A stretch of 19,654 nucleotides of DNA from positions 1 through 19,654 of the forward strand of contig MIAC01000165.1 in assembly GCA_001830475.1 (NCBI GenBank). The letters are read 5' to 3'. This DNA comes from Rhodospirillales bacterium RIFCSPLOWO2_12_FULL_67_15. Its GTDB lineage: Bacteria; Pseudomonadota; Alphaproteobacteria; Rhodospirillales; 2-12-FULL-67-15. The translations under genes were made by a program, and so were the position numbers. This document shows, one piece after another, positions 603 through 17,728 of this stretch (position 1 is its first letter; each line of letters begins with the position of its first letter). Below the pieces are notes generated by a model. That model was given only the letters and a program-made list of their open reading frames with translations. It had not been told where the DNA came from and made no database searches.

Positions 603-658
603 GTATTCATGCGGGTTGCCGATGACTATTCGGTAGCCTGACTCCCACCATAAATAAC

Positions 659-1702: not shown

Positions 1703-1921
1703 TACGCCAGATCCCAGCGCACGAAATGCTCCAATCCGACCCGCAGCGGCGGCGTCGGCGCGACGCGTGTTTCGGGACCGCGGATCGATGCAACCGCACA
1801 CGGCTGCGCAAGGTCGTTGACGCCGAGATCCGAGGATACAGCCACCGGGTGGTGCTCTACACGCCCGAGCCGGAATGAACCGCACGCGCCTCCCGCGACC
1901 AAGCCCGCCGGCGAAGCACGG

Positions 1922-2377: not shown

Positions 2378-2379
2378 GA

Positions 2380-5106
2380 TCAGCCCCCTGAATTCGAACC
2401 TAAGAGTTTCTGCAGAACACCGCCGCTGCTGCGGAGGTGCTCAAAGCGCCCGCGCTCGACCAATCGGCCTTCCTGCATCACGACCACGTGATCGAAAAGT
2501 TCGCCGAGTTCGAGTTGTCGCAGTGCCCAGATCACGCACTGCCCTTTGCGATGTTCGAGCAGGCTGGTGACGAAGCGCCTCTGCGCCGCCAGATCGAGCA
2601 CGGCCACGGCTTCGTCCAGAACCAACACGGTGGGCCGCTTGAGCAGCGCACGTGCAATCGCTACCCGTTGGCGGTCGTCGATCGTCAGCCGCGTTGCGCC
2701 CACCCCGACGCCGTACTCGAGCCCGATGCGTATCACGAGTTCGCGCAGCCCCTGCGCATCCAGCATTTCGCGCAGCAACTGGGCGATGCGCGCCGCTGCG
2801 CCTGCCTGCGTCGTGACGACCTTGCCGAACAGAATGTTGTCCTGCAGCGATTCGGCGCTGTTGTAGGCCAGCGGATCGAAGAACTGCACTGTTCCGCGCA
2901 GTTCCGCGGGAAGGTGCCGCGCGAAATGGCGGCGCGCCTCGAGCAGCCGCGCCTGCATCGCTTCGTCGATCAGGCCGAGGCGGTGCCGCGATGTAATCAG
3001 CTTGAATGTCAGCGCGAGCAAGCGCGTGCCGTCCGCCTCTTCGATCCGCTCCGACTCGCCCCCCGACACCCTCGCGAGCAGTTCCCTGAAATACCCGAGA
3101 TCATCCGGGCGGATGAAGCTGAATCGCTCGAACATCTCGTGCTCAGGGGGCAGTCCGCTGAACAGTTCGACCATCGTTTCGGCCACCTTCCGTCCGGCCT
3201 CGAGCAAGTCGTCCTCGAGCCCGGTCTCCCTCAACACTCGACGAACGTAGGCGTTGCCCGCCATGTTGTCGGCATTGAGCGACGCGTCGTCCGATGTGCC
3301 GAAGAGCAGGTTCTCGGCGAGCGTCGCGTTGCCGAGGTAGCGCTCCGGATCGAACCGTTCCACCAAACCCTGGAGGTCCGTCGCGGAGGAAAGTTCGGCC
3401 AACGCCGCGCGCGCGCGGATCACGCGCTCGACCATTCCCGGGTAGCGGGCCGGATCCGGCGCGCTTCGCAGTCCAAACGCGAGGATGGTTTCCTCCAGGC
3501 CGGCGGTACGCAGAATCTCGTCGATACGCGCGTCCAGTCCCTCCTCGTTGTCGGCCCCGGCCGCCGTGTAGTCGATCCAGTCCGCCTTGATGTCGAGCAT
3601 GCTGTTGCCCGAGCGCTCCGCCTCTCGCTGTTCCCGCCCGTGCTCGGCGGCCTGGTCCGCGGCGTAGCGCGCTTCGCGCAACGGGAAATGCTTGAGACCG
3701 TAGAGCAGGTTCTCGCGAACCGTCGTGGGAAACAGATACGCAGCGTTACCCACGTAACCGAGCGCGCGTCCGTTGACGGCCTCCGGCGCGCCGGTCACGT
3801 CGATACTCCCGACCGACACCGTGCCATGGGTCGGGACGACCAGGGCGGCAATCATCTGCGCGAGTTCGCTGCCCCCGCCACGGTGGTCGCCGAGCAGGGC
3901 GACATGCTGCGTCAAGGGAATCTCGAACGATACCGAGGCGACGAGCTCGTCGCCGGTGTCGCCGGTCAGGGTGAGATTGGAAACCTTGACGCTTCCGGCA
4001 GCCGGCAGCGCGGGCGCCGGAAGCGGCTGCTGGCGTTTCTCCGCAAGCAGATCATCGGCGGTGAACTGTTCGACCACCTGTGCGTACTTCATCGAGACGT
4101 CCAGGCGCTCCTGGTCCCAGTCGATCAGCTCCTTCACGGGCGAGGGAAGATCCTTGTACGCGGCGATCACGGCGACCAAGGCACCGATGTCGAGGCGTCC
4201 GACGATGACCAGGTAGCCACCGAGCGCGTAGAACAGGAACGGCGTCACCTGCGAGAGGAAGTTGTTGATGAACTTGATGAAGAACTTGCGCTGATAAAGC
4301 TCGAGCCGGATCTGCAACAGGACCCCGAGACGCGACGAGATCTCGGCGCGCTCGTAATTCGAGGTGTCGTTCGCGTGAATTTCCACGATCCCGTCGACGC
4401 ACTCGCTGATGCGTCCGGCGAGTTGGCGCCCCCCGAGCTGGCGCTGCCGACTGAGCACCAGGAGGCGGCGGCGCAGGCGCGGGATCAGCACCGCCTGAAT
4501 TACTACCACGAATACCGCGATCATGCCCAGCATCGCATGCTGGACGAGAATGAAGATCACCGCAGTGATCGCCTGGCCACCGAGAAACAGCGGTGTGATC
4601 AGCGCCTCGCCGATGAAGCCGCCCAGGGGTTCGACTTCGTCCTTGATCATGGTCGCGACTTCGGCCGACTTGACGCGCCGGAAACGCGGCAGCGGAAAGC
4701 GCAGCATCCGATCGAACAGAATGAAGCGCAGCCGGCGAAGCATGCGTTCGCCCATCCAGCCCTTCATCGTGTTGATGCGGACCTTGAGCAGTCCGTTCAC
4801 GACGATCAGGCCGAGAAAGACCACACTCAGCGCAAGCAGAAATGGTACACGCTCAAGCGAGAATCCGTCGAACAGCGTGAGCGTGCCCCCGCCGAGAAAC
4901 CCGGGCCAATCGAATTGCAGCCGAAACAGCGGCGCCGTTGCGCCAGGGGTCGTGAAACTGCGGCCTTGGATCGCTTCATTGATGATGATCTTCGGCAAAT
5001 CGAGCGAGAAGAAATAGACCACCATTGACGCCACCACCAGGGGCACGATAGCGATCTGCTCCCGCTTGCTGTAGCGCAGTATGAAACCGAACAGGCTATG
5101 TTCCAT
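2380..5106 (-). CDS. ABC-exporter-like protein with degenerate, expanded nucleotide-binding domain
   Basis: A 908-residue protein, about 300 longer than a normal half-exporter. Residues 15-320 look like an ABC type-1 membrane domain with about six helices (near 17-35, 86-106, 166-190, 192-210, 285-302, 305-317). The nucleotide-binding domain begins near 372. Walker A is GDHRGGGS (406-413), with Gly412 in place of the essential Lys. The signature reads LTIDDRQ (807-813) instead of LSGGQ. The H-loop region (CVIWALRQLE) has no His. Walker B and the catalytic Glu survive (LVLDEA, Glu832), as does the D-loop Asp838. Between Walker A and the signature lie about 390 residues holding three ENLLYG-type segments (465-470, 598-603, 756-761). 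Two are clearly followed by a GLE helix, the third by a weaker GLR version. A GGGGAG ribosome binding site lies 9 bases before the ATG. Substrate unknown; ATP hydrolysis is doubtful. Confidence 0.93.
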   Translation of the reverse strand: MEHSLFGFILRYSKREQIAIVPLVVASMVVYFFSLDLPKIIINEAIQGRSFTTPGATAPLFRLQFDWPGFLGGGTLTLFDGFSLERVPFLLALSVVFLGLIVVNGLLKVRINTMKGWMGERMLRRLRFILFDRMLRFPLPRFRRVKSAEVATMIKDEVEPLGGFIGEALITPLFLGGQAITAVIFILVQHAMLGMIAVFVVVIQAVLIPRLRRRLLVLSRQRQLGGRQLAGRISECVDGIVEIHANDTSNYERAEISSRLGVLLQIRLELYQRKFFIKFINNFLSQVTPFLFYALGGYLVIVGRLDIGALVAVIAAYKDLPSPVKELIDWDQERLDVSMKYAQVVEQFTADDLLAEKRQQPLPAPALPAAGSVKVSNLTLTGDTGDELVASVSFEIPLTQHVALLGDHRGGGSELAQMIAALVVPTHGTVSVGSIDVTGAPEAVNGRALGYVGNAAYLFPTTVRENLLYGLKHFPLREARYAADQAAEHGREQREAERSGNSMLDIKADWIDYTAAGADNEEGLDARIDEILRTAGLEETILAFGLRSAPDPARYPGMVERVIRARAALAELSSATDLQGLVERFDPERYLGNATLAENLLFGTSDDASLNADNMAGNAYVRRVLRETGLEDDLLEAGRKVAETMVELFSGLPPEHEMFERFSFIRPDDLGYFRELLARVSGGESERIEEADGTRLLALTFKLITSRHRLGLIDEAMQARLLEARRHFARHLPAELRGTVQFFDPLAYNSAESLQDNILFGKVVTTQAGAAARIAQLLREMLDAQGLRELVIRIGLEYGVGVGATRLTIDDRQRVAIARALLKRPTVLVLDEAVAVLDLAAQRRFVTSLLEHRKGQCVIWALRQLELGELFDHVVVMQEGRLVERGRFEHLRSSGGVLQKLLGSNSGG

Positions 5107-5132
5107 CGATAGAATCTCCCCTTTCGGCGACC

Positions 5133-5138
5133 ATTCTA
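5133..5138 (-). promoter_or_regulatory. Possible -10 element for the exporter/cNMP gene pair
   Basis: On the minus strand the sequence TAGAAT lies about 27 bases before the exporter ATG, one mismatch from TATAAT. No good -35 box sits 16-18 bases upstream, so this is only a candidate. It would give the last two genes of the operon their own promoter, downstream of the hairpin at 5175-5196. Confidence 0.25.
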
Positions 5139-5174
5139 GCGCGTTCGCACTCCAGCAGCAGCAGGTGTGCGGGC

Positions 5175-5196
5175 GGGCGCGCCCCCGGCCGCGCCC
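5175..5196 (-). terminator. GC-rich hairpin directly after the permease stop codon
   Basis: GGGCGCG (5175-5181) and CGCGCCC (5190-5196) pair perfectly over 7 bp around an 8-base loop. The repeat touches the stop codon of the permease gene (5197-5199). No U-run follows in the direction of transcription, so it may be a pause, attenuation or RNA-processing/stability element rather than a full terminator. Confidence 0.45.
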
Positions 5197-6381
5197 TTAC
5201 TTCGTGGCGCTACTGTAGGGATCCGCCGCGTCCCTCAGGCCGTCACCCATGAAGTTGAACGCGAGCACCACGATCAGCACAGGCACGCCGGCCAGCATCA
5301 GCCACGGGTACAGCGCGACGACATTGATGTTTTGCGCTTCGTTGAGCAGAACGCCCCAACTGGTCACGGGAGGACGCAGGCCCAAGCCGAGGAACGACAG
5401 CGCCGTCTCGCCCATGATCATGCCCGGCACCGATAGCGTCGCCGAAGCGATCAGATGGCTGGTGAAGCTCGGTAGCAAATGACGGCCGATGACGCGCCCC
5501 GGGCCAGCGCCCATCAGCACCGCCGCGGTGACGAAGTCCTCCTCGCGCAGCGCCAGCAGCTTGGACCGCACCGCCCGAGCAAGCCCCGGCCAGTCCAACA
5601 GCCCGAGGATGATGGTGATGCCGAAGTAAACCAGGATCGGGCTCCAGTTCACCGGAAGTGCCGCCGAAAGTGCCATCCACAGGGGCAATTCCGGAAAGGA
5701 GCTCACCATCTCGATGAACCGCTGGATGAGAGTGTCGATCCGGCCGCCGAAATAGCCGGATATACCCCCGAGCGTGATTCCGATCGTGAAGCTCACGATG
5801 ATCCCCAGCAGGCCCACGGTGAGCGAGATGCGCGTGCCGTAGACGATGCGCGAGAACAGGTCGCGGCCCAGGCGGTCGGTCCCCATGAGAAACACCGTAC
5901 CGCCCTGCGCCGGGCAGAACAGGTGGACGTTGGCCTCGACCAGGCCCCAGAAGCGATACGCGTCGCCGCGACAGAAGAAACGCAGCGGCTGCACCTGGCC
6001 GGTATTCGGCGTGTATCGTCGAATCAGCGCGTCCATGTCGAGCTGCATGTCGTAACCGTAGACGAAGGGGCCGACCAAGCGACCCTCGTGAAACAGGCGC
6101 AGTTCCTGCGGCGGCGCGTAGATGTGCGTGATGTTGCGGGTGGCGACACCGTACGGCGCGATCAGTTCGCTGACCAGCGTGGATGCGTAGAACAGCGCCA
6201 GAATAACCGCGGCGATGACCGCCACGCGGTGGCGACGGAACTTCCACCACATCACCTTCCATTGTGACGCGCGGTAGAACCGTTCCTGTTCGCGGGTAAG
6301 CTGCTCGTCCTCGTGCGGCGCGAACGGCTCCGGAGAGACGAAATGCTCCAGCTTGCCGTCCCCGCTCGGCGCCGTGCTCAT
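5197..6381 (-). CDS. ABC importer permease, DppC/OppC/YejE-type
   Basis: A 394-residue inner-membrane permease of the peptide/nickel/oligosaccharide importer class. A long cytoplasmic N-terminus (about 50 residues) precedes the first membrane helix (VAVIAAVILALFYASTLV). An extracytoplasmic insert of roughly 100 residues follows (from IAPYG to GGTVFLMGTDRLGRD), then five more helices. The EAA loop that docks on the ATPase is in EDFVTAAVLMGAGPGRVIGR, and the C-terminal signature FLGLGLRPP..SWG is typical. The start ATG at 6381 overlaps the stop of the upstream permease by 4 bases (ATGA), which fixes the start; the reading frame is open further upstream but that part only shadows the other permease. 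From memory, the long insert with PFVYGYD and RFFCRGDAYRFWGL resembles rhizobial importers of this class. I infer it imports peptides or oligosaccharides. Confidence 0.95.
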   Translation of the reverse strand: MSTAPSGDGKLEHFVSPEPFAPHEDEQLTREQERFYRASQWKVMWWKFRRHRVAVIAAVILALFYASTLVSELIAPYGVATRNITHIYAPPQELRLFHEGRLVGPFVYGYDMQLDMDALIRRYTPNTGQVQPLRFFCRGDAYRFWGLVEANVHLFCPAQGGTVFLMGTDRLGRDLFSRIVYGTRISLTVGLLGIIVSFTIGITLGGISGYFGGRIDTLIQRFIEMVSSFPELPLWMALSAALPVNWSPILVYFGITIILGLLDWPGLARAVRSKLLALREEDFVTAAVLMGAGPGRVIGRHLLPSFTSHLIASATLSVPGMIMGETALSFLGLGLRPPVTSWGVLLNEAQNINVVALYPWLMLAGVPVLIVVLAFNFMGDGLRDAADPYSSATK

Positions 6382-7403
6382 TTGACCGAACCACCAGACA
6401 ACCGGATGCGCGGGTCGAGCGCCGCCAGCAGCAGATCGGAGATGAACATCCCGAAGACGGTCAACAGGGACATGAACATCAGGAACGAGCCCGCCAGATA
6501 CTGGTCCTGGCTCCGCAGCGCACTGAGCAGCATCGGGCCGGCGGTCTGAAGGGAGAGCACCACCGCGACGATGGCCGACCCGGAAACGATGCTCGGAAGC
6601 AGGTTGCCGATGTCCGCGATGAACGGGTTCAGCGCCATTCGCAGCGGATACTTGATGAGCAGGCGCAGGCGCGGCACGCCCTTGGCCCTGGCTGTCACGA
6701 CATACTGCTTCTGCAGTTCGTCGAGCAGATTGGCGCGCAGCCTGCGGATCATGCCCGCGGTGCTGGCGGTTCCGATCACGATCACCGGGATCCAGAGGTG
6801 CTTGAGGACCGACGCGACCTTGTCCCAGGACCACTGCTGTCCCAGGTACTGCGGGTCCATGATGCCGCCGATGCTCATGCCGAAGTGCACGTTGGCGAAA
6901 TACATCAGCACCAGCGCCAGCAGAAAGCTGGGCGTCGCCAGACCGACATAGCCGAGCAGCGTGAGTCCGTAGTCTCCCCAGCTGTACTGGCGAGTCGCCG
7001 AATACACGCCGATGGGAAAAGCCACCAGCCAGGTGAACAGGATGGCGGAGAAGTTGAGGATGAAGGTAAGTATCAGACGGTCGCCGACCACCTCACCGAC
7101 CGGCAGGTTGTATTCGAACGACCACCCCCAGTCGCCCTGCAGCAAACCGGAGAACCCCCGCTCCCCAGGCCAGATCCCGACCCAGGTCGCATATTGCTCG
7201 ATGAAGGGGCGGTCGAGACCGTATTGCTTGCGCAGAAACGCGGCCCTTTCGAGGGCGCTGCGGTCGCCCTGACTCTGCAGCTCGGCAATTTGGTTCGACA
7301 GGAAATCGCCGGGGGGCAGCTTGATGATGGTGAACGTCAGCAGACTGATCACGAGCAATGTCGGGATCATGATCAGGATGCGTCTAATCGTATAGTTCAA
7401 CAT
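6378..7403 (-). CDS. ABC importer permease, DppB/OppB/YejB-type
   Basis: A 341-residue inner-membrane permease, partner of the DppC-type permease encoded next. The N-terminus (LNYTIRRILIMIPTLLVISLLTF) is the classic first helix of this family. It is followed by a periplasmic loop (about 40-110) and five further helices. The ATPase-docking loop lies around VVTARAKGVPRLRLL and YPLRMALNP. The length is close to the usual 310-360 residues. It starts 49 bases after the stop of the binding-protein gene, the larger of the two gaps inside the importer set, and ends in a 4-base overlap with the next permease. No strong Shine-Dalgarno sequence is visible, only CCGGA near the ATG. The substrate is set mainly by the binding protein and cannot be read here. 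Confidence 0.95.
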   Translation of the reverse strand: MLNYTIRRILIMIPTLLVISLLTFTIIKLPPGDFLSNQIAELQSQGDRSALERAAFLRKQYGLDRPFIEQYATWVGIWPGERGFSGLLQGDWGWSFEYNLPVGEVVGDRLILTFILNFSAILFTWLVAFPIGVYSATRQYSWGDYGLTLLGYVGLATPSFLLALVLMYFANVHFGMSIGGIMDPQYLGQQWSWDKVASVLKHLWIPVIVIGTASTAGMIRRLRANLLDELQKQYVVTARAKGVPRLRLLIKYPLRMALNPFIADIGNLLPSIVSGSAIVAVVLSLQTAGPMLLSALRSQDQYLAGSFLMFMSLLTVFGMFISDLLLAALDPRIRLSGGSVK

Positions 7404-7452: not shown

Positions 7453-9375
7453 TCATTTGAACCACATCAAGTCCGGCCGGAACATGCCGAAATAGGCGCC
7501 CGGCTCCCAACTGTAGAGCTCGCTGGTCGGTACGTTCATCAGCGTCGTGCTCGCCACGACCGGTTGTGGAATCCTATTCACGGTGCCGATGACGAACTGT
7601 TGCTCGGCGTGAATGCGCAGCATCCTGCGCCACACCGCGGCGCGCTCGTCGTTGCTGGCGGCATTGCGCCATTCCGAGAGCAAATCCGCCAGTTCCCGCA
7701 CTTCCGGTATGTCGGGTGCTGCGCCCTGGTTGCCGCTGTTCTCGTAGAACTGGCCGAACTTCGGCCACTGCAACTGCTGCTGCGAAGATGGTGCGAGTAC
7801 CTCCGGGCTCATCTCCGCGGTTGCCACCGCATTGTCCAGCCCTTTCCAAACCGACATCATGGTTTCGCCGGAAAAGATCCGGTTGCGAAAAACCTCCCTT
7901 TGCGACGGTTTGACGAACAATTTGATGCCGACCTCGCGCCAGGTTTCGCGGATCAACTCCAGGATGTCGGTATCCTCCGTGCCCTCCCCTGCCGACTCGA
8001 CGATGATTTCCAGCGGACGGCCGTCGGGCAGCCGGCGCACGCCGCCCAACGCACGCTTGAGTCCGATCTCATCGAGCAGCCGCTGCGCCGCTTCCCGGTC
8101 GTAGCTCGCCCAAAGGCTCTGGTCGCGCGCCTCGAACAAAGCGCTTTCGGCCAGCATCGTATTGTTGGATTCGGTCGCCAAGCCGAAATACAGCACCTGG
8201 TTGATCAGCGATCGATCGATGGCGAGCGAGAGCGCGCGCCGAAAGCGAACGTCGCGCATCAGCTTGCGCCAGACCGGATCATTGACGTTCAGATTGGGAT
8301 AGAGCGCCAACTGTGACCCAATGCCGGAACGCCAGAGCAATGTCCGGTAGCCACGGCCTTTCTCGTTCTTCTTGAGAAACGTGTAGTCCTTGAAATCCAG
8401 CGCCTGCGCCTGCAGATCCGACTCGCCGGTGCCCGCCTTCACCGCGATCAGCTTGTCATCCGCGATCACCAGCTCGACCCGATCGATGTAGGGCAATTGC
8501 CGCCCCGCGCCGTCGACGCGGTGGAAGTAGGGGTTACGCACGGCTACGAACCGGTCCGCCGGCGGCCTCACGGTGTTAAACCAGGGCTGCAGCGTGGGCA
8601 GGTCGGGGTTGTCGAACCGGTACATGTTGTCCTTGTTGTTGTGCTGTCGCGCCCAGCTGAGCAGCCGGTTGCCTGCGTGCGTGCGCGCAAGCAGACTCTT
8701 CGAGTATCTAACGTGGAACTTCTTCAGGTAGTGTGCCGGACGGTAGATCAGGAGCGGCGACGCACCCGCCAGCCGCGCAAGGAAATCGGGATTCGGCTGC
8801 GTCCAGCGGTATCGTACCGTGGCCGCGTCGATCACCCCGAATTCTGGCCGCTCGCCGTTCACGATCAGGTCGCTCGGTGGGCCGGTCGGATTCAACTCCC
8901 GATTATTGGCAACGTCTTCCCAGTAGTAACGAAAATCCTCGGCGGTGAACGGATGACCGTCCGACCAACGATGTCCCTTGCGCAGATGCAGGGTGAATTC
9001 CCGGTTGTCGCGCACGTCGACACGCGCCAGGATGTCCGGCACGAGTTCCAGGTTCTGGTTGTACCCGACCAGGCGGGCATACCCGTAGACGAACAACAGG
9101 CGCACGTCGCGCGCACGTCCGATCAGCGTGCGTAGCGTGGCGCCGTGCTTGCCAAGTTGGATGACCTGGTGGTCCGGGACGCTGGTCATGGGAACGTCCG
9201 GCAGCCGCTTGCCGATCGGCGGCAGCCGGCCCGCCTTCACGTCGGCGATAAGTGACTCGGTCTCTACCATCGCCACGCCAGCCACCCCGATCGTGCTGCG
9301 CAAGACCAGCCACGTGCCGACGATCAGCGTCAATATCACGCCCTGCGGGCATCGCCGGCGCAGTGTCGCGCTCAA
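7453..9375 (-). CDS. Periplasmic solute-binding protein, SBP_bac_5 (peptide/oligosaccharide) family
   Basis: A 640-residue secreted binding protein. I place the start at a TTG (9375) that overlaps the stop of the ATPase gene (TTGA), because it gives a plausible signal sequence: RRR, then VILTLIVGTWLVL, then GVAGVA before MVETES near residue 36. The family hallmark WSDGHPFTAEDFRYYWED (137-153) is intact, as are later features such as RRALSLAIDR. At 640 residues it is longer than DppA/OppA (about 530) and closer to YejA and to rhizobial oligosaccharide binders such as AgpA. The substrate is therefore unsettled between peptides and sugars. It acts in the periplasm, handing its ligand to the two permeases encoded just downstream. 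Whether the signal is cleaved or stays as an anchor is uncertain. Confidence 0.93.
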   Translation of the reverse strand: MSATLRRRCPQGVILTLIVGTWLVLRSTIGVAGVAMVETESLIADVKAGRLPPIGKRLPDVPMTSVPDHQVIQLGKHGATLRTLIGRARDVRLLFVYGYARLVGYNQNLELVPDILARVDVRDNREFTLHLRKGHRWSDGHPFTAEDFRYYWEDVANNRELNPTGPPSDLIVNGERPEFGVIDAATVRYRWTQPNPDFLARLAGASPLLIYRPAHYLKKFHVRYSKSLLARTHAGNRLLSWARQHNNKDNMYRFDNPDLPTLQPWFNTVRPPADRFVAVRNPYFHRVDGAGRQLPYIDRVELVIADDKLIAVKAGTGESDLQAQALDFKDYTFLKKNEKGRGYRTLLWRSGIGSQLALYPNLNVNDPVWRKLMRDVRFRRALSLAIDRSLINQVLYFGLATESNNTMLAESALFEARDQSLWASYDREAAQRLLDEIGLKRALGGVRRLPDGRPLEIIVESAGEGTEDTDILELIRETWREVGIKLFVKPSQREVFRNRIFSGETMMSVWKGLDNAVATAEMSPEVLAPSSQQQLQWPKFGQFYENSGNQGAAPDIPEVRELADLLSEWRNAASNDERAAVWRRMLRIHAEQQFVIGTVNRIPQPVVASTTLMNVPTSELYSWEPGAYFGMFRPDLMWFK

Positions 9376-11255
9376 GGGCGCAACTCCGCGGCGTCCGCGC
9401 TGGGTCGAGCGCGCACCCAATGACCACCGCCGATATCGACCAGGTCGGGACCATCCGATCCCACGCGAAACACCTCGGACCATGCCAGCGGATCGGAGGC
9501 TCTGCCGTCCATGAGCGCGTCGAAATCGAGCCTGCGCGCCAGATCCGGATGGGGGACGGCGGCGAGCAGCGCCTTGGTGTACGGATGGACCGGATTAGCG
9601 AACAGGGCGTCGCGGGTGCCGGTCTCCACGATGCGTCCGGCGCACATCACGGCGATCCGGTCCGCGATGTAATGCACGACCGCCAGGTTGTGCGTAATGA
9701 AAAGGTAGGTCAGGTTGAGGGCCTTGCGCAGGTCGCGCAGCAAATTGAGCACCTGAGCCTGAACCGAAACGTCGAGCGCCGATACCGGCTCGTCGCAGAT
9801 CAGCAGGTTCGGGCTCAGCGCCAGGGCTCGGGCAATGCCGATGCGCTGGCGCTGACCGCCGGAGAAACTGTGCGGATAACGGCGCATGAAGCGGATATCG
9901 AGCCCCACCAAGGTCATGATTTCCTTCACCCGCTGGTAGCGTTCGTCCGCGTCGCCGATCCCGTGGATGACCAGAGGTTCGGCAATGACGTCGAGCACGC
10001 TCATGCGCGGATCCAGCGACGCGAACGGGTCCTGGAACACGAATTGCACCTGGCGCCGGTAAGCGAACAGCGCTTCGCCCTCGAGCGCCAGCACGTCGCG
10101 CGCCTCGCCCATCGTGTTGTAGGTGATCTCGCCGCTGTCGGGTGCAACCGAACGCAGCAGTATTCTCGCCGTGGTGGTTTTTCCGCAACCCGACTCGCCA
10201 ACGAGCCCGAGGCACTCACCGGCGCCGATATCGAAGCTCACGTCGGCGACGGCGACGACCTGCGCTCCGGGCCTGGCGCCGAACAGTCCGCGGCGGCGCG
10301 TACTGAATCGTTTGCTCAAACCCCGCACACGCAACAATGGCTCCTCGCTGTCACCCGCGCCCGGCCGCGGTCCCGCGGACACCAGGCGGCTGGTGTCGAC
10401 CTCGATTTCCCGAATTGGCGTCAGCCGCTCTTCGGGTGCCATATCGAATCGAGGCACGGCGCGCATCAGTGCCTTGAGGTACGCGTGCCTGGGTGCGCTG
10501 AAGATGTCTTCGACCGAACCGGCCTCCATCACGCGCCCGTTGTACATCACCACGACCTCGTCCGCCATGTTGGCGACGATGCCCAGATCGTGGGTGATCA
10601 TCAGCATCGCCATTTGCAGCTCGCCCTGCAGCTGTTGGATCAGCTGCAGGATCTGGGCCTGGATGGTCACGTCCAGGGCGGTCGTCGGTTCATCCGCGAT
10701 CAGCATCGCCGGGTGGCAGACCAGCGCCATCGCGATCATGGCACGCTGGCGCAGTCCGCCGGAGAGCTCGAACGAGTAGGCGTGTTCCGCGTGGGCGGGG
10801 TCCTTGAACCCCACCAGACGCAGGATCTCGATGACCGCCTCGCGTCTCTGCGCCGATCCGAGCCCGCGATGCAGCGCGATGACTTCCCCGATCTGGTTGC
10901 CGATGGTGTGCAGCGGGGAAAGCGCGGTCATCGGCTCCTGAAAGATGATCGAGATGCGCCCGCCTCGAATCGCCTGCAGCACGGCGCCATCCGGGTCCTG
11001 CCGCGCGATGTCGATCTCCGACCCGGGCCGGGACGGGTCCATGAACACCACCTCCCCGCTCACGATGCGGGCGATGCGCGGCAAGATGCCCATGATGGTC
11101 TGGGCGACGACCGACTTTCCGGACCCCGATTCACCGACCAGGGCCACCGTGCGCCCTTGAGGAACGCGGAACGACACACCGTCGACCGCTTTCACGATGC
11201 CGGCGTCGACGTCCAGATGGACCCGCAGGTCGCGCACGCGCAGCAGATCAGGCAC
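9372..11255 (-). CDS. Fused double ATPase of a peptide/oligosaccharide ABC importer (GsiA/YejF type)
   Basis: A 627-residue cytoplasmic protein with two complete nucleotide-binding domains in tandem, equivalent to DppD plus DppF. Domain 1 has Walker A GESGSGKS (41-48), signature LSGGL (164-168), Walker B LIADE and H-loop His222. Domain 2 has GESGCGKTT (353-361), FSGGQ (464-468), LICDE and His522. All catalytic residues are present, in contrast to the exporter-like protein encoded later in the same operon. The oligopeptide-family C-terminal tail follows domain 1 ([17 protein letters not shown]) and domain 2 ([17 protein letters not shown]). The GTG start at 11255 is chosen because GAGGAG lies 6 bases upstream and homology begins immediately. 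It overlaps the preceding gene by 8 bases and the binding-protein gene by 4. The last 45 residues are an extra tail of unknown role. Confidence 0.95.
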
Positions 11256-11781
11256 CGTCTGCTCCTCGAACGACAGTGCCCGGCGCGTAACCTGCCGCGC
11301 CGCCGACATCGATGCTGAGCGATGCAAGATTGATGCGGGTGCGTTCGTGGAACGGCCGCCCGAGCTGCAGCGCCCGGCGCGATGCGGTGGCCACGATCCG
11401 ATCGAAACCGTCGATGTCCGAGTCGACGCGGATCGCCTTGCCCGGGCCGCGGATCACCAGTTGCATCCAACCGGCGCCGCGGTCGCGACGCGTGGAGTAG
11501 TAGGCGAGCTCGACCGCACGCAGGCGGTCCCAGCCGATCGTGACGCCGAATAATCCGAGCACGCGGATCCCGGCATCGTCGACGACCAGTTTCATCGCGT
11601 GGCGCCCGGCGCATCTCGCGCCGTCGATCAGAAACAGCGTCGCGCCCACGGTGAGTGCCACACCCACCCACAGCGCGGGCTGCATGACCCCGAGGGGCAG
11701 CAAAGTACAGGACAGGCCGAGCGCTGTACGCGCATAGCCGATGACAATCGCGCGTCGACCATAGCGATGCAGGCGCGTCAT
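11248..11781 (-). CDS. Small membrane protein with possible PH-like domain, function unknown
   Basis: A 177-residue protein that I do not recognise by name. Two hydrophobic segments near the N-terminus (about 11-31 and 36-53) probably form a membrane hairpin. The soluble part has alternating beta-type strands (AMKLVVDDAGIRVLGLFG, then IGWDRLRAVELAYYS, then GWMQLVIRGPGKAIRVD) and a closing helix (GFDRIVATASRRAL). This is the layout of small bacterial PH-like membrane proteins. The ATG overlaps the stop of the deacetylase gene (ATGA), and its own end overlaps the ATPase gene by 8 bases. It therefore sits exactly between the glycan-modifying genes and the importer genes. An accessory or scaffolding role for either part is possible, but nothing in the sequence proves it. 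Confidence 0.8.
   Translation of the reverse strand: MTRLHRYGRRAIVIGYARTALGLSCTLLPLGVMQPALWVGVALTVGATLFLIDGARCAGRHAMKLVVDDAGIRVLGLFGVTIGWDRLRAVELAYYSTRRDRGAGWMQLVIRGPGKAIRVDSDIDGFDRIVATASRRALQLGRPFHERTRINLASLSIDVGGAAGYAPGTVVRGADGA
11262..11267 (-). promoter_or_regulatory. Ribosome binding site for the double ATPase
   Basis: GAGGAG on the minus strand, 6 bases before the GTG at 11255. It lies inside the end of the upstream gene and decides the start; open frame continues upstream but without homology to the family. Confidence 0.7.
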
Positions 11782-12551
11782 GCGCCAGCCACCACGTGAA
11801 AGACGTCAACCGCGCGCAGCCAACGCACCGTGCCATGGGATGCCGTGAACCGAAACAGGCGATCGAGGAATGACCAGAGCGGTTCGTCGTGCAAGGCATG
11901 GTGCGTGAGCCAGCCGGTCGGCTCGCCGGGATCGACACGATTCTCCCGGCGTGCGCGCAGGTGTTCGACCGCTTCGGCGAGCGCCTTGGCCTCACCGACG
12001 AATACCCGCCCGCGCCGCCACGCGATCAGATCCACATGAGTGTTCACCTGGCGCACGCCGAGTACCAGTTCGGCTGCGGGTCGCGCAGAGAAGCTGCTGA
12101 ATCCGCAAATTCCCAGACTGGGCAGCATGCCGATCAGCTCGGGGGCGAATCGATTCCATGGCGGCACGAGCACCGGGAGCAATCGCGCCCCTGCCAGCAG
12201 CTGCAATCGAGCGCGCCCGCCTGCGAGACGAGCCAGTGCGGAGTCGACGTGCGCGCCACTCGGAAATTCGCAGGCCCGGGCACCCTCGGGCGCCCGATTG
12301 CAATGATCGACGCCATGCTGCAGCACTTCGACGGTCTCCGGAAGGTCCGAAAAGATCGCCTCCTCCGCGTCCGCTGGAATGGCGGCCAGCGCGAGCGGCA
12401 CACCACAACGGCCGGACAGCGACGCGAGACGAGCCAGGGAGGCCGTGGGATGCGCAGCATCATCGTCGCGCCACCAGAAGTCGGCGATGCGGCCGGCATC
12501 GCGCCAACGATCGAGTTCATCGCCGAACTCGCGCCAAGGCGCCGAGGTCAC
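11778..12551 (-). CDS. Polysaccharide-deacetylase-like protein (divergent NodB-type fold)
   Basis: A 257-residue protein with features of the carbohydrate esterase 4/NodB superfamily. There is an Asp cluster after a strand (FWWRDDDA, Asp29-31), a likely metal-binding pair in LQHGVDHCNR (His79 and His83), and a conserved loop VPPWNRF (129-135) where the fold has its substrate-facing Arg/Trp segment. Such enzymes remove acetyl groups from N-acetylated sugars using a divalent metal. No signal peptide is seen, so this one may act in the cytoplasm, perhaps on a nucleotide- or lipid-linked sugar. I prefer the GTG at 12551 (GTGA overlap with the upstream stop) because GAAGAG lies 8 bases before it; a GTG at 12560 is the alternative. 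Placed after four glycosyltransferase genes, it probably trims the glycan they build. The sequence is divergent, so activity is inferred. Confidence 0.82.
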   Translation of the reverse strand: MTSAPWREFGDELDRWRDAGRIADFWWRDDDAAHPTASLARLASLSGRCGVPLALAAIPADAEEAIFSDLPETVEVLQHGVDHCNRAPEGARACEFPSGAHVDSALARLAGGRARLQLLAGARLLPVLVPPWNRFAPELIGMLPSLGICGFSSFSARPAAELVLGVRQVNTHVDLIAWRRGRVFVGEAKALAEAVEHLRARRENRVDPGEPTGWLTHHALHDEPLWSFLDRLFRFTASHGTVRWLRAVDVFHVVAGA

Positions 12552-13789
12552 CGTCGACACTCTTCGACCCAGCGCGCGATCAGCTCTGCGCTGCGCTGGG
12601 CGCCGTTCAAGTCAAGCGCGGACCCAGACCGACGTTGGTGCGTGGCGGCGCGATCGATCGCTTGGGCCAGCGTTTCGGGGCTGAGGTGTGACTCCTCGAC
12701 CACATGCAGCAGGCCGCGCTCGGCCAACAACCCGGCGCGCAGCGACTGCTCGGTCTCGGCGCCTGCAGCGAACGGTACGACGACGGCACGCGCATTCTCC
12801 CCCAATAACTCCATGACGGTATTGTAACCCGCCTGACTGACCGAGACGGCACAGTTGGCCAATCGAGTAACGAAGTCATCGCGCGTGCGCTCGACGATCA
12901 CGCGTCCCTGCCCTTCCTGCGCGGCGAGCAGCTCGATCGCCGCAAACTCCTGCGCCGGCGCGTTGACGCCCGTCAGTACCCGCCAGATTCGCTGCGCCAG
13001 CCGTGTGCGGTGACGCGCCCGCAGCGCGGTTTCGAGCAACGTCCGGCCGACTGCGCCGCCGCCCGCGGAAACGATGACCTCATCGCGGCCCGCGGCCGGA
13101 TCACTACCGACGCTCGCGGCACGATCCACGACGTAACCGGTGTAATGCAGGCGCGCACCCAACTCATCCGCAAGGCCGAAGCTGCGACCGAAGGCAATCA
13201 GCGATGGGTCGCCATGCACCATGACTTGGTCGAAATAGCGCTCCACGAGGGCGAGCGTTTCGCGCTGCCGCGCCGCGTCGCGCTGACCACCGCCGACGAT
13301 GTCGCGAACCGACGACACGATCAGCGGTCTTGGCTGCGCCACGGCGGCGGCTTCCAGCAGGGGGAGGATCTCGAAGCGCATCTGCCGTCGGCCGAAGGGA
13401 AACAGCTCGACGATCAGCACCTGCGGATCGACGCGATGATAGGCGTTCAGGAGCGCTTCGCAGCGTGCCCGGCGCCAGGCGTCGTCGATCGGTTTTCCGG
13501 CGGCGTCGAGCAACGACCTGAACGTGACATCGGCCGCACCCGTAGGCGGCAGCTGCACCACGTCGATCTCCTCTGCCGCCAAGCCCGGGACTTCGAATCC
13601 GCCGCTTGCCAGCGTCACCCGCAATCCCCGGGCCTGCAGCGCGCGCGCGAGCGTCAGCGCCCGCTTGAGGTGGCCGATACCGAGCAGATGCTGGACGTAA
13701 AGGAATACGCGCGGCCGCGGCGACATCGTCATCGCGCCGATCGAATGCGCAGGATCGCGCACCTCTTGCGCCCGCTCGTCAGCACCCAT
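12548..13789 (-). CDS. GT-B glycosyltransferase, MurG-like/COG4671 type (second copy)
   Basis: Up to 413 residues, with a GT-B fold. The N-terminal Rossmann half opens with RVFLYVQHLLGIGHLKRA, carrying the Gly-rich G-x-G-H loop of MurG-like enzymes. The C-terminal donor-binding half has VSQAGYNTVMELLGENARA, in which the Glu typically contacts the sugar nucleotide. The product probably transfers a sugar from a nucleotide donor to a growing glycan at the inner face of the membrane. The ATG at 13789 has GGAGAGG about 10 bases upstream and overlaps the previous gene by 11 bases. An ATG at 13732 starts closer to the domain and cannot be excluded. It ends inside the start region of the deacetylase gene. 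It is a distant paralog of the first gene of the operon. Donor and acceptor are unknown. Confidence 0.86.
   Translation of the reverse strand: MGADERAQEVRDPAHSIGAMTMSPRPRVFLYVQHLLGIGHLKRALTLARALQARGLRVTLASGGFEVPGLAAEEIDVVQLPPTGAADVTFRSLLDAAGKPIDDAWRRARCEALLNAYHRVDPQVLIVELFPFGRRQMRFEILPLLEAAAVAQPRPLIVSSVRDIVGGGQRDAARQRETLALVERYFDQVMVHGDPSLIAFGRSFGLADELGARLHYTGYVVDRAASVGSDPAAGRDEVIVSAGGGAVGRTLLETALRARHRTRLAQRIWRVLTGVNAPAQEFAAIELLAAQEGQGRVIVERTRDDFVTRLANCAVSVSQAGYNTVMELLGENARAVVVPFAAGAETEQSLRAGLLAERGLLHVVEESHLSPETLAQAIDRAATHQRRSGSALDLNGAQRSAELIARWVEECRR
12560..12565 (-). promoter_or_regulatory. Ribosome binding site deciding the deacetylase start
   Basis: GAAGAG on the minus strand, 8 bases before the GTG at 12551. 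It overlaps the alternative GTG at 12558-12560, which would be too close to use it, so the downstream start is favoured. Confidence 0.5.
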
Positions 13790-14948
13790 CGACCGGCCGC
13801 CTCTCCGCCCCCATCACACGGGCCAGGCAACCGCCCAGATGCGAGGACGCCACTGCCGTGCTGCGCTCGGTAGCGACGAACCGCGCGGCCTCCGCGCCGA
13901 GCTGCTGGCGCCGCACGCGATCTTGCAGCAGGCCGCGAGTCGCCTCCGCAAGCGCACGGGTATCGCCGCCCGCAACCAGCTGCCCGGTGCGCTGATGGAG
14001 TACCACATCGGGCACCCCTCGCACGCCGCACGACACCACAGGTAGACCGGCGGCCTGTGCTTCCAGCAAGACCATGCCGTAGGCTTCGTTGACGGCCGGC
14101 CACAGCAAAAGATCACATGCGCCATACGTGGACGCCAGCGCGGCCGCACCGAGCTCACCCAGCCATCGAATGCGTCCCGGAACGGCCCCTTCCAGCACCG
14201 CCTCGACCTCATCACGGGCCGGACCGTCACCGGCGACCAGCAGCGTCCAGCGCTCCTCGCGCAGGTGTGCAAGCGTTGCGGCGAGTTCACGGTAGGAAGC
14301 GAGCTTGTCGCCGGGGCGCATCATCGCAGCCGCAAGGATCCACGGTTCACCCTGGTCGACGCGATGCTGCCGCGCGAGACTTGTCCGGTGCACGTCGCGC
14401 GCGTCCCAGGCGGCACGATACGGCGAGGGTTCGAGAAACGGCGGCAGATGCACTACGCGTTCGCCCGAGCCAAGCAGGTGTTCGATCGAGGGGATATCGT
14501 CGCGCGAGGGGCACAGCACCAATGCTGCCTGCCGGATCGCGTCCTCGCACGCCTGGTGACCAATCGCCCAAGGCCCGCCGGCACGCTTCGCCGAGTGGGA
14601 AGCCTCTGCGATTACATAGGGAATGTTCAACAGGCGACTGAGCCTGGGTCCGAGCCAGTCGGGGGCCTTATAGTAAAGGTGGTAGGTGAACCAGAGGTCG
14701 GGGCGCCCGATCGGCGGTCCCGACTGCCACTGCGCGGCGAGCTGCGCGGCGAGCGCGATCCCTTGGTCGCGCAGCGCGGCCTGGCGAGCCGCGTCTCCGT
14801 CGCGATCGAGACTGCGAAAGGTCGACACCATCTCGACCCGGTGACCGCACGCCTGCAGCGCGTCGAGAAGCAGGCCCGCGACCCGCCGATCCCCCGACGG
14901 CGTGCCGTGGGTCGGGGACTTGAGAGGAGCGTAGAACGCGATATGCAT
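13779..14948 (-). CDS. GT4-family glycosyltransferase
   Basis: A 389-residue GT-B enzyme of the glycosyltransferase 4 group. The N-terminus MHIAFYAPLKSPTHGTPSGD is the usual first strand plus Gly-rich loop. The C-terminal half has the E-x7-E donor site in NEAYGMVLLEAQAAGLPVV, followed by GVPDVV and a tail helix. Retaining transfer from a nucleotide sugar is expected; the donor is unknown. The ATG at 14948 is 14 bases after the stop of the upstream glycosyltransferase. There is open frame far upstream, but it only shadows that gene. No clear Shine-Dalgarno sequence precedes it, so translational coupling is likely. It overlaps the next glycosyltransferase gene by 11 bases if that one starts at 13789. 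Nothing seems broken or missing. Confidence 0.93.
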   Translation of the reverse strand: MHIAFYAPLKSPTHGTPSGDRRVAGLLLDALQACGHRVEMVSTFRSLDRDGDAARQAALRDQGIALAAQLAAQWQSGPPIGRPDLWFTYHLYYKAPDWLGPRLSRLLNIPYVIAEASHSAKRAGGPWAIGHQACEDAIRQAALVLCPSRDDIPSIEHLLGSGERVVHLPPFLEPSPYRAAWDARDVHRTSLARQHRVDQGEPWILAAAMMRPGDKLASYRELAATLAHLREERWTLLVAGDGPARDEVEAVLEGAVPGRIRWLGELGAAALASTYGACDLLLWPAVNEAYGMVLLEAQAAGLPVVSCGVRGVPDVVLHQRTGQLVAGGDTRALAEATRGLLQDRVRRQQLGAEAARFVATERSTAVASSHLGGCLARVMGAERRPVDGC

Positions 14949-14962
14949 GGCCGCGGGACCGG

Positions 14963-16243
14963 CTAGCTCGCCGCCACGCGCGCCACCGGACGCGGTGCGT
15001 GCTCGAGGCCGAACTTCACGGCGAGGCGCCCGATATTGTCGTCGATGTCGAATTCGGAGGCGACCCGTGCGCGGCCGCGCTCTGCCATCTGGCAGCGACG
15101 CGCCGGATCCAGGATCAAGGACTCGATGGCACGCGCGAGAGCCTCCGGCGACTCGGACGGCACCAGCAGACCACTGCTGCCGTCGCGTATTAGCTCCGGG
15201 ATCGCTGATACCATCGTCGCAACACAGGGCAATGCCTGGCTTTGTGCCTCCACCAGCACGTTGGGCAAACCGTCGCGATCGCCGTCGGCAGCGATCCGAC
15301 ACGCAAGCGCGAACAAATCGGCGCGCTGATACTCGGGCAGCAATTCGTTCTGGGACAGGGAGCCTCGCCAAGTGACACGATCGGCGACCCCGAGCCGCCT
15401 CGCCTGCGCTTCGAGAGCCGAGCGCAGCGGCCCGCTGCCGACATGCATGAAGCGCCAGTGCAACGCCGCCGGCAGACGCGCAAGCGCCGCCAGCAACACG
15501 TCGAACCCCTTCTTTTCCACCATGCGTCCCACGGAAAGGATAAGCACTGGGTCGGCCGGGTTGCGTCCGTCGCGCGCCGCGCGCTGGCGCGGCGGAGGAG
15601 GAAACCGCGCGAGGTCCAGGCCGTGATATACGAGTTCGACCCGGCCCTCCGGCGCGAGCGCGGCAAGGTGCGCGCGGTTCGCCTCAGTGCAGGTGACGAG
15701 CCAATCGCAGGCGGCGAGCTTCTGGCGAAGTTCCCACTCGGGCGACGTCCAGATGTCCTTGGCATGCGCGGATCCCGACCAGGGCAGGCCGCGCAGCAAG
15801 GCCGCGTAGCGGGTCACGGATGCTGGCGAATGCAGGAAATGGACATGCAGCCGCGCGATTTCCGGCGGGAGTTCGCAGGCGAGCACCATCGCTTGTCCGA
15901 AACGCCGGAACCGGCTCGGCGTGGGGTCGCGCAACAGGTCCTTCAGCCAGAGAGAGCGCACCTGCCGGTACACGGCGAACTGGCGCGCACGCCACCACGC
16001 GCGCAGCACCCGCATCGGTTCGCGCAGCAGGTACTCGGGCAGGTACAGCAGGGGCGCCCGGATCTCGCGATGGACGGGATGGATACTCTCGTCCGTCGGG
16101 CGCCGCATCGAAATGATCTGGATATCCAGGCCGCGTTTTTCGAGCGCGGCGATCTCCTGGGCGATGAAGGTTTCGGACAGTCGTGGATAGCCTTTGAGAA
16201 CCATGCCTACGCGTCCGCCACGACTGCCGGATCGCGCGTTCAC
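14963..16243 (-). CDS. GT4-family glycosyltransferase, WcaL/exopolysaccharide type
   Basis: A 426-residue GT-B enzyme. Its N-terminus carries LKGYPRLSETFIAQEIAALE, the K-x-x-P-R-x-SETF signature of the WcaL/AmsK-like enzymes used in colanic-acid-type and other exopolysaccharide pathways. The C-terminal half has VGRMVEKKGFDVLLAA and the donor loop GDRDGLPNVLVEAQS. In that loop the first Glu of E-x7-E is Asp or shifted, as is common in this subgroup. The start is taken at GTG 16243, which overlaps the stop of the preceding gene (GTGA) and has AAGGA 5 bases upstream; longer open frame upstream lies inside that gene. This is the clearest sign that the operon builds a surface or secreted polysaccharide. 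The sugar is unknown. Confidence 0.93.
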   Translation of the reverse strand: MNARSGSRGGRVGMVLKGYPRLSETFIAQEIAALEKRGLDIQIISMRRPTDESIHPVHREIRAPLLYLPEYLLREPMRVLRAWWRARQFAVYRQVRSLWLKDLLRDPTPSRFRRFGQAMVLACELPPEIARLHVHFLHSPASVTRYAALLRGLPWSGSAHAKDIWTSPEWELRQKLAACDWLVTCTEANRAHLAALAPEGRVELVYHGLDLARFPPPPRQRAARDGRNPADPVLILSVGRMVEKKGFDVLLAALARLPAALHWRFMHVGSGPLRSALEAQARRLGVADRVTWRGSLSQNELLPEYQRADLFALACRIAADGDRDGLPNVLVEAQSQALPCVATMVSAIPELIRDGSSGLLVPSESPEALARAIESLILDPARRCQMAERGRARVASEFDIDDNIGRLAVKFGLEHAPRPVARVAAS

Positions 16244-17466
16244 TTGATCCTTCGCCGATCGATGGTCCGGGCCGACTTGCCGCCGCCGAGCCAGGGTGCG
16301 ATCTGACGCGCAAGGTTCGCCGAACCATCGAGCAAGCCCGGCACGATCACCTCGGAGGGGGCCTTCTGCTGCGGCAGGGCACGCAGGGCCGCCGCCATCG
16401 TCGAGGGCTCCAGGCTCTCGTCCGCGGTGAGCATGCTGACCAGTCCCAGTTCTGCCGCCCACGACGCGCGAATATGCTGCTCCAGGCGCGGGACGATGCG
16501 AGGAATGATGAGCGCGCGCTTGTCGAGCGACAGCACTTCGCAGAACGTGTTGTAGCCGCCCATGGCCACGACCCCGACTGCGCGCGCCACCAGGATCTCC
16601 ATGGGGCTGTAGAAGGTGATAGCCTCGACCCGACCGAGCTTCGCGGCGCGCTCCTGATACCGGGCGCGCAATTCCGGCGCCATGAACGGTCCAAGGACCA
16701 GCAACGCCGCGTACGGCAGCGCTTTATCGTACTCATAGGCGCGCAGTACCGCTTCGATCAGCTGATCGCCATCACCGCCGCCGCCGGTCGTGACGAGCAG
16801 ATAGGGCTGACCGGTCAGTTGGGGGAGCGCCTGGGTACTTGCGTGCACCGGCAAATCGCGAGGCAGATAACCCACGTAGGTCATCTTCTCGCGCACATCC
16901 GCGGGTACTGCGATCCCCTTGAGCGGGTCGTAGATTTCCCGCAAACCGTAGACCCAGATCTCGTCGTACAGGTCGCGCAGTGCAGGTACTGCCCGCTTGC
17001 GCCGCCACTCCCGCGCGAGCAGCTTGGGCTCGTCGAGGACGTCGCGAAGTCCGAGCACGAGACGCGTCCCCCGGGCCTTGAGCATCTCGAGCGTCTCTTT
17101 CACCTCGCCACCCAGGCCCAGGGGTTCCTTGTCGACGATGAATACATCCGGTCGGAAGGCATCGGCAGTGTGGCGAATGATGGAGGCGCGCATCGCCAGG
17201 GTTTGAGTGACATCGATGTGCAGGCCGAGCGAAGTGTAAGCGCCATTGCGCAGCTTGATCACGCCCGGAATGCGGACGAAGTCCACGCGCATCCTGAAAT
17301 CGAAGCTGCCGATGATCGGCGAACCGGACAGGATCAGAACGGACAGGCCCTTGTACCGGCCGACGAGAGCATGGGCGATTGCGCGGCAGCGTCTCAGATG
17401 CCCGAGGCCGAAGGTGTCGTGGCTGTAGATGAGTACCCGGCTCTCCTTACGCGGCTTCCGCGGCAT
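16240..17466 (-). CDS. GT-B glycosyltransferase, MurG-like/COG4671 type (first copy, first gene of operon)
   Basis: A 408-residue protein with the order RVLIYSHDTFGLGHLRR (N-terminal G-x-G-H loop), a central linker, TTGGGGDGD starting the second Rossmann half, and VVAMGGYNTFCEVLSLDKRA as the donor-binding helix. This matches the predicted glycosyltransferases of COG4671, relatives of MurG and UDP-GlcNAc-type enzymes. The ATG at 17466 has GGAGG 6 bases upstream, a near-ideal site that fixes the start; open frame continues 22 codons further but without homology. It is the first gene of the minus-strand series, facing an AT-rich divergent region, so the main promoter should lie at about 17480-17560. 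A second enzyme of the same type is encoded three genes on. Donor and acceptor are unknown. Confidence 0.88.
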   Translation of the reverse strand: MPRKPRKESRVLIYSHDTFGLGHLRRCRAIAHALVGRYKGLSVLILSGSPIIGSFDFRMRVDFVRIPGVIKLRNGAYTSLGLHIDVTQTLAMRASIIRHTADAFRPDVFIVDKEPLGLGGEVKETLEMLKARGTRLVLGLRDVLDEPKLLAREWRRKRAVPALRDLYDEIWVYGLREIYDPLKGIAVPADVREKMTYVGYLPRDLPVHASTQALPQLTGQPYLLVTTGGGGDGDQLIEAVLRAYEYDKALPYAALLVLGPFMAPELRARYQERAAKLGRVEAITFYSPMEILVARAVGVVAMGGYNTFCEVLSLDKRALIIPRIVPRLEQHIRASWAAELGLVSMLTADESLEPSTMAAALRALPQQKAPSEVIVPGLLDGSANLARQIAPWLGGGKSARTIDRRRIK

Positions 17467-17472
17467 GCCGAC

Positions 17473-17477
17473 CCTCC
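17473..17477 (-). promoter_or_regulatory. Ribosome binding site of the first operon gene
   Basis: GGAGG on the minus strand, 6 bases before the ATG at 17466. It decides between this start and the upstream in-frame ATG at 17532. Confidence 0.75.
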
Positions 17478-17728
17478 ATTCCCCTGTAATAGAAGCGTAC
17501 GTTGAATGAAATAAGCGATAATACCTATGCAATGTACTCTACACGAGTGAAATTACGCAACCCGGGTTCGTTCGGGCAGTCTGGCAGGTTGATGCAAAAT
17601 CCCGTTCGCACTGAGCGCAACGCCGAAGGCGCGGAGTCGACGTGCTGCAGCGTATTGAATTCGTTGGACCCGACACTCCGATCTTCAGCGCCGCGGGCAA
17701 ATTATGCCGACCCGCGGTTTGCCGACTC
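17478..17728. promoter_or_regulatory. Divergent regulatory region between the operon and the PP-loop gene
   Basis: About 250 bases between divergent genes. The part at 17500-17560 is much richer in A+T than its surroundings, as expected for promoters. Leftward, TATTAT (complement of 17518-17523) could be a -10 box, but no convincing -35 partner sits at normal spacing. Rightward, TTGAAT at 17502-17507 resembles a -35 box without a good -10. I see no riboswitch or clear operator. The segment 17642-17728 could instead belong to an N-terminal extension of the PP-loop protein. Confidence 0.35.

Follow-up and report, generated by a model that had tools for sequence, protein, structure and literature searches.

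A stretch of 19,654 nucleotides from Rhodospirillales bacterium RIFCSPLOWO2_12_FULL_67_15 (contig MIAC01000165.1, positions 1 to 19,654, hereafter called the window) encodes on its minus strand an ATP-binding cassette (ABC) exporter-like protein of 908 aa with a degenerate and enlarged nucleotide-binding domain (NBD). This protein belongs to a conserved family in which the ATPase site is incomplete in every sequence aligned, the NBD contains an internal repeat, and the ABC protein is linked to a cyclic-nucleotide-binding (cNMP) domain and to a conserved gene cluster. The reading that best accounts for these features, held here with middling confidence, is that of a second-messenger-gated pseudo-ABC exporter, predicted to be controlled by its dedicated cNMP domain and not by a normal ATP cycle.

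A conserved family with an incomplete ATPase site

Both the membrane-domain fold and the NBD fold of exporters are recognizable in the window protein, as Pfam detects ABC_membrane (residues 90–314) and, in two stretches, ABC_tran, both above cut-offs. The top NCBIfam model is that of MsbA (TIGR02203), with 160 bits against an equivalog cut-off of 602, which is therefore missed. Among solved structures, ABCB and MsbA-type exporters score best, matching in two blocks (about residues 78–485 and 795–902) that bracket an insert of some 300 residues. In the AlphaFold model, a complete canonical NBD is likewise accompanied by about 300 extra residues.

Three motifs of ABC ATPases, Walker A (GxxGxGK[S/T]), the LSGGQ signature and the H-loop histidine, are all lacking in the window protein. 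Gly412 occupies the Walker A lysine position within GDHRGGGS (406–413), the signature reads LTIDDRQ, and the aligned H-loop position 863, within WALRQLE (860–866), is an arginine. Both the Walker B aspartate and the catalytic glutamate are present, residues 827–838 of the translation reading VLVLDEAVAVLD with D831, E832 and the D-loop D838. All residues quoted in an earlier sequence-only reading of this DNA were found at their positions in the translation, including the Glu832 and Asp838 that were said to remain; the arginine at position 863 agrees with the absence of an H-loop histidine reported there.

The conservation of these positions was assessed on 134 aligned rows, comprising 27 of 120 listed homologues, 29 loci from the order of the window (including the partial L023) and 78 of 80 loci from a genome collection, from which two truncated loci were dropped. 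The reference row was P0001, whose 8 differences from the window protein, in 908 residues, all lie outside the motifs discussed; it occurs twice among the rows, leaving 133 distinct ones. None of the 134 rows has a complete set of ATPase motifs. No row has a complete SGG signature, and five have a histidine in the aligned H-loop position. Position 412 is a lysine in 72 rows and otherwise mostly Arg, Gly, Thr, Ala, Val or Ser; position 413 is Ser or Thr in 28, and only two rows combine this with Lys412. The Walker B aspartate is kept in 48 rows (Asn in 85) and Glu832 in 64, both together in five, while the Q-loop glutamine persists in 56. The losses vary by lineage, yet the site is complete in no row. 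The window protein and its nearest relatives (five rows, including the duplicate) have kept the Walker B Asp and Glu and lost the Walker A lysine, and also the Q-loop glutamine in those of these rows that were displayed, whereas 55 rows have the lysine and Glu832 but neither the Walker B aspartate nor a histidine at position 863. Annotated relatives from Azospirillum and Ruegeria show no recognizable Walker A.

The replacement of Lys412 by Gly, noted in the sequence-only reading, is thus real in the window protein but not family-wide. That reading had also considered that homologues with intact Walker A and LSGGQ would make this copy just a decayed gene; no such homologue occurs among the 134 rows or nine further sequences examined, a number small beside the 6929 matches described below, and the degeneracy is a trait of the family and not the decay of one copy. 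Sequencing error is an unlikely cause of the motif loss, since the Walker A and SGGL/SGGQ motifs of the neighbouring OppDF ATPase are intact.

In a large protein set, 6929 proteins match the window ABC protein at E ≤ 0.001, a set that probably includes many ordinary exporters. The 120 matches listed share 61–99% identity with it over 97–100% of the query and are 888–925 aa long. With the genome of the window counted in both cases, matches were found in 108 of 297 sampled genomes of its order (E ≤ 1e-60) and in 32 of 398 genomes of a phylum sample (E ≤ 1e-40). Besides its own, 30 of the latter belong to the same class (three of them to the same order), and the sole match outside the class covers the membrane domain only. 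Named records with the family include Betaproteobacteria, Reyranella, Kiloniella and Dongia among others, and 262 plasmids carry it, mostly of Rhizobium (144) and Sinorhizobium (80) and mostly from rhizobial symbionts. The genome collection yielded at least 545 relatives among at least 593 stretches, of which the 80 loci were kept, and is no census. Two other genomes of the genus of the window (81% and 96% complete) gave no match at E ≤ 1e-60.

Internal repeat and conservation pattern

The sequence-only reading had proposed that the NBD grew by repetition of its Q-loop/helical-subdomain segment. Three related motifs are found in the translation: TTVRENLLYG (461–470), NATLAENLLFG (593–603), preceded by FDP (585–587), and AESLQDNILFG (751–761), preceded by FDP (743–745). 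Profile comparison with hhalign of unit 2 (550–705) and unit 3 (706–830) aligned 81 columns (probability 98.4, E 8.5e-15, score 88.0), in which the helix before FDP, the pattern FDP-x-x-x-Y-N, the pattern E/D-N-hydrophobic-hydrophobic-F-G and the next helix correspond. Unit 1 gave weaker matches, both to unit 3 (as residues 440–575; E 3.7e-6, score 39.1) and to unit 2 (as residues 440–549; E 5.8e-5, score 32.3). In 60 column shuffles per unit pair, done on the same stretches as the observations, the maximal scores were 20.6 (units 2–3), 20.6 (units 1–3) and 23.1 (units 1–2), so the real scores were never reached; five other segments of the protein scored 10–21 against units 2 and 3. Across 57 aligned sequences, the cores of the motifs do not vary (N599, L601, G603, N757, L759, F760 and G761). 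As judged from these profiles, the internal repeat is real and beyond chance, which supports the proposed growth; the insert consists of repeated units and not of unrelated insertions, the alternative then raised. The enlargement would correspond to two further Q-loop/helical units, some 300 extra residues, beyond a canonical NBD.

Columns conserved at 90% or more number 91 of 340 in the membrane domain, 62 of 325 in the insert and 26 of 210 in the NBD core, and the mean frequency of the top residue is 0.68 in the membrane domain versus 0.56–0.58 in the NBD core. In working exporters it is usually the NBD that is conserved best, so that the order of conservation in this family appears reversed.

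Four loci encode relatives of the membrane domain of 382–425 aa, with no NBD in frame (35–36% identity over 327–359 columns), and none of their neighbouring open reading frames (ORFs) is matched by the window ABC or OppDF proteins. The protein of one of them, L179, scores 26.0 bits on ABC_membrane, just below the cut-off of 28. Its gene has CopB on one side and YHS, cytochrome c and P-type ATPase genes on the other, in a neighbourhood that also includes multicopper oxidase and permease genes, and in L177 a multicopper oxidase gene is next on the same strand. Both loci thus appear to carry an exporter membrane domain alone beside copper-resistance-type genes. A class-wide search with the L179 protein (E ≤ 1e-30) gave matches for 95 of 289 genomes. 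Most of the frames matched had at least 876 aa; 11 frames were shorter than 450 aa, some of them perhaps cut by contig ends.

The cNMP partner and the gene cluster

The stop codon of the ABC gene is closely followed by a gene for a cNMP protein, a partner that the sequence-only reading left out and that is the sensor accompanying every relative examined. This protein scores 70 bits on PF00027 (cut-off 27.5), retains the phosphate-binding cassette GEIAVFGDVPRTATV and has cGMP-dependent protein kinase domains as its best matches in the PDB. The cNMP gene directly follows the ABC gene in all 78 near-full genome loci, although in four of these its stop-to-stop frame begins far upstream and adjacency was judged from frame ends 444–471 bases past the ABC frame. 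Among the 29 order-level loci, the cNMP domain is fused to the ABC protein in 18 and encoded separately within the flank in 11. A GE...RTA cassette is present in 92 of the 99 cNMP domains found in family loci at E ≤ 1e-10. In such cassettes, the Glu and Arg are ligand-binding residues, and a Thr after the Arg favours cGMP in several known domains. In relatives of 1190 aa, a GGDEF-family domain (found by Pfam in L033) is fused after the cNMP domain; by eye it has lost the GGDEF letters in the sequences inspected, making it a second degenerate enzyme domain in one protein.

Matches to the rhizobial class III cyclases (E ≤ 1e-6) occur in 13 of 100 loci and are near full length in five of those; the three of these matches that were scanned with Pfam, one at L091 and two at L132, were all above the cut-off. 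The background, guessed from three over-cut-off matches in 2.1 Mb, is about 2 of 100 loci. Three class III cyclase matches above the cut-off occur elsewhere in the genome of the window, outside the window itself. On plasmids of R. hidalgonense and R. etli CIAT 652, a cyclase gene directly precedes the oligopeptide-importer (Opp) genes; the S. meliloti cyclase gene is 1.3 kb ahead of the Opp genes, one unlisted locus tag intervening. Genes for metallo-beta-lactamase (MBL)-fold hydrolases akin to those of L129 and S. meliloti were found in 11 of the 80 genome loci. In two loci of one genus, an MBL gene of the Apyc1 family, whose members degrade cyclic nucleotides, directly precedes a fused ABC-cNMP gene (L122:8978–9847, plus strand; L136:11224–12030, minus strand). 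These genes reach 100–104 bits with the Apyc1 model of Pfam, against a cut-off of 50. The cyclase and hydrolase genes suggest that a cyclic nucleotide is the likeliest ligand of the cNMP domain, although a cyclase is seen in only a minority of the loci.

By eye, the cyclase homologues L138:1784–3127 and L139:4745–6094 (both plus strand) keep the metal-binding Asp and the Asn/Arg pair. They have a serine at the usual base-selecting Lys/Glu position, so that their cyclic nucleotide product is not predictable. A DUF3095 gene (L139:1787–2989, plus strand) lies near the Sinorhizobium cyclase and has homologues in L142, L088, L113 and L116.

The minus strand of the window is one conserved cluster of glycosyltransferase (GT), oligopeptide-importer, ABC and cNMP genes, in the order GT4-GT3-GT2-GT1-deacetylase-like-'PH'-OppDF-SBP5-OppB-OppC-ABC-cNMP (Table 1). 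Glycosyltransferase or Opp homologues accompany the family in 69 of the 80 genome loci and in 15 of 20 longer stretches. The placement of the ABC gene varies, many relatives having it between GT1 and the deacetylase-like gene or in the opposite orientation. The Opp, GT1, GT3 and GT4 proteins of the window have homologues in the rhizobial plasmid clusters (R. hidalgonense, R. etli CIAT 652, S. meliloti), and the deacetylase-like protein is 38–41% identical to products of 'polysaccharide deacetylase family' genes of Sinorhizobium and Azospirillum. A QueC-family gene (window 17642–18373, plus strand) adjoins the glycosyltransferase genes; it scores 32.5 bits on Pfam (cut-off 22) and falls below NCBIfam cut-offs.

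Over window positions 2380–7403, the ABC protein is closer to Betaproteobacterial loci (57–64%) than to those of its own order (up to 46%), and OppB likewise (79–86% versus 60–66%). As the searched genus mates also lack the ABC gene, horizontal transfer of this segment is possible.

Table 1. Features of the window and of the NBD-less loci. Positions are those of the window unless a locus is named.
Feature	Position	Strand	Remarks
ABC exporter-like protein, 908 aa, degenerate and enlarged NBD	2380..5106	-	ORF with ATG start
Transmembrane domain, residues 1–340	4087..5106	-	Pfam ABC_membrane 90–314; most conserved region of the family
Degenerate Walker A GDHRGGGS, residues 406–413	3868..3891	-	Read from translation and alignment
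Unit 1, residues 446–549	3460..3771	-	Q-loop position (Gln lost), ENLLYG segment, helices
Unit 2, residues 550–705	2992..3459	-	FDPERY...NATLAENLLFG, then helices
Unit 3, residues 706–806	2689..2991	-	FFDPLAYN...AESLQDNILFG, running into signature
Degenerate signature LTIDDRQ, residues 807–813	2668..2688	-	
Walker B (D831/E832) and D-loop D838, residues 826–838	2593..2631	-	
cNMP protein, 151 aa	1922..2377	-	2 bases past ABC stop codon; Pfam cNMP_binding E 1.7e-19
OppC-like permease	5197..6834	-	ORF; true start probably further in
OppB-like permease	6378..7403	-	
SBP_bac_5 substrate-binding protein	7453..9483	-	
OppDF-like double ATPase	9372..11327	-	Intact Walker A and SGGL/SGGQ; internal sequence-quality control
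177-aa protein ('PH', a mere label)	11248..11781	-	No Pfam match; cluster homologues in 11/20 longer stretches
Polysaccharide-deacetylase-like protein	11778..12560	-	No Pfam match
Four glycosyltransferase-like genes	12548..17532	-	ORF bounds
GT1	12548..13789	-	ORF bounds
GT2	13779..15371	-	ORF bounds
GT3	14963..16462	-	ORF bounds
GT4	16240..17532	-	ORF bounds
NBD-less relative	L177:6943-8217	-	
NBD-less relative	L178:6616-7827	+	
NBD-less relative	L179:6532-7797	+	
NBD-less relative	L180:1-1146	+	Begins at contig edge

Proposed mode of action, rival readings and known systems

The mode of action of a gated pseudo-exporter could be pictured as follows. A class III cyclase, such as those encoded near some relatives, would make a cyclic nucleotide, which the cNMP domain would bind through the conserved Glu and Arg of its cassette. 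The enlarged NBD would receive the signal next, its three Q-loop/helical units offering a larger surface of the kind that normally touches coupling helices. The membrane domain would switch state in response without ATP hydrolysis, and would either open a path for a glycan or glycolipid that the neighbouring glycosyltransferases produce or regulate its assembly. From the motif losses and gene linkages we infer that the ABC protein performs no productive ATP hydrolysis, is controlled by a cyclic nucleotide and acts on a glycan or glycolipid. The idea of an ATP sensor, put forward in the sequence-only reading, is not supported in that form, since the ATP-binding residues vary among lineages while the repeat motifs are fixed and the linked sensor is a cNMP domain; either of the other two suggestions of that reading, a gated scaffold or a transporter with a new cycle, may apply. 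A wider proposal, which we make only tentatively, is that of a widespread bacterial class of ABC-exporter-fold proteins that dropped ATP hydrolysis to become a cyclic-nucleotide-gated membrane device. The triplicated helical subdomain would serve in it as a signal-coupling scaffold, and one branch would have shed the NBD, leaving the membrane domain alone, by copper-resistance genes in the loci read.

Several observations weigh against such gating. The presence of Lys412 and Glu832 in about half of the rows means that some nucleotide binding may remain; the D-loop Asp (124 of 134), Arg812 (131) and Gln813 (133) are retained, and nine rows have a histidine at, or at most two positions from, the H-loop site. 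The motif loss could also be explained by heterodimerization with an unlinked partner. No cyclase match was found in the window or in the fetched flanks, of unequal lengths, of 87 of the 100 loci, and glycosyltransferase and Opp homologues are both missing in 11 of 80 genome loci and 5 of 20 longer stretches, some of whose contigs end early.

Some of these points would suit an ATP-driven exporter with an unusual cycle, which would use its own non-canonical site or pair with an intact half-exporter from another locus. It is established that one site of a heterodimeric exporter can be degenerate, other exporter-like ABC genes occur in the genome of the window, and the Walker A lysine, Glu832 and especially the D-loop Asp persist in many rows. 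However, the SGG signature is lost in all 134 rows, the aligned H-loop histidine is absent from 129, and Lys with Ser/Thr survives in only two. An intact ABC partner is not regularly linked, as ORFs of more than 180 aa in which Walker A and SGG are both intact, Opp ATPases included, occur in only 14 of 80 loci; in the two-copy loci read (L121 and L130) both copies are degenerate, and relatives without any NBD exist. An ATP-driven cycle is accordingly judged quite unlikely. A receptor or scaffold resembling SUR, which would move nothing and report the cyclic-nucleotide state to the glycosyltransferases or the Opp importer, would accommodate the lost ATPase residues, the cNMP linkage in all loci examined, the linkage to enzymes and an importer, and the presence of SUR2B among the solved structures matched by the AlphaFold model. 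Yet conservation peaks in the membrane domain, a pattern that suits a path or binding site no less well, and some members have no Opp or glycosyltransferase homologues in view; we regard such a scaffold as somewhat unlikely. That the gene is simply decaying or dead in this genome, as the lost catalytic residues of this copy and the two genus mates without a match might suggest, is highly improbable: its 908 codons are open, the listed homologues align over nearly the whole query, the same kind of degeneracy recurs in Alpha- and Betaproteobacterial relatives, the neighbouring OppDF is intact, and this family-wide conservation disfavours decay.

With respect to known systems, type IV ABC exporters (MsbA, TmrAB, TM287/288, IrtAB and the ComA NBD) are among the closest; from these the family differs by incomplete catalytic motifs in all rows, and the window protein also by some 300 extra residues, two further Q-loop/helical units and a cNMP partner. 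SUR and CFTR, which are eukaryotic and bind nucleotides, use the ABC exporter fold as a regulator or a channel and not as a pump, a use that may be shared here; we know of no repeated helical units or cNMP partner in them. A precedent for a cNMP domain linked to an ABC exporter is HetC of Nostoc, an exporter that contains a C39 peptidase and has an ATPase residue that is essential, and whose N-terminal cNMP domain is indispensable in vivo and binds ppGpp (PMC10986499). Unlike HetC as described there, the window protein has lost its ATPase motifs, and no C39 peptidase domain is among the Pfam matches of this protein or of two fused relatives. The proximity of a class III cyclase to a cNMP-domain protein is also reminiscent of Pycsar; PycC models match four of the neighbouring cyclases and PycTIR models match the cNMP protein, probably because of the shared cyclase and cNMP folds, and a defence island is made less likely by the linkage to a glycan cluster. 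No description of the ABC family or of its conserved glycosyltransferase cluster was found in the literature searched.

ABC exporters are taken as ATP-driven. If the gated reading holds, this family would be a bacterial counterpart of SUR and CFTR, in which the exporter fold was kept, the motor residues were not and a second-messenger sensor was paired with it, and the behaviour of an exporter membrane domain uncoupled from ATP would become directly testable. If the NBD-shed branch is what it appears to be, such a domain would be able to work without any ATPase. The family would moreover link cyclic-nucleotide signalling to a conserved glycosyltransferase cluster.

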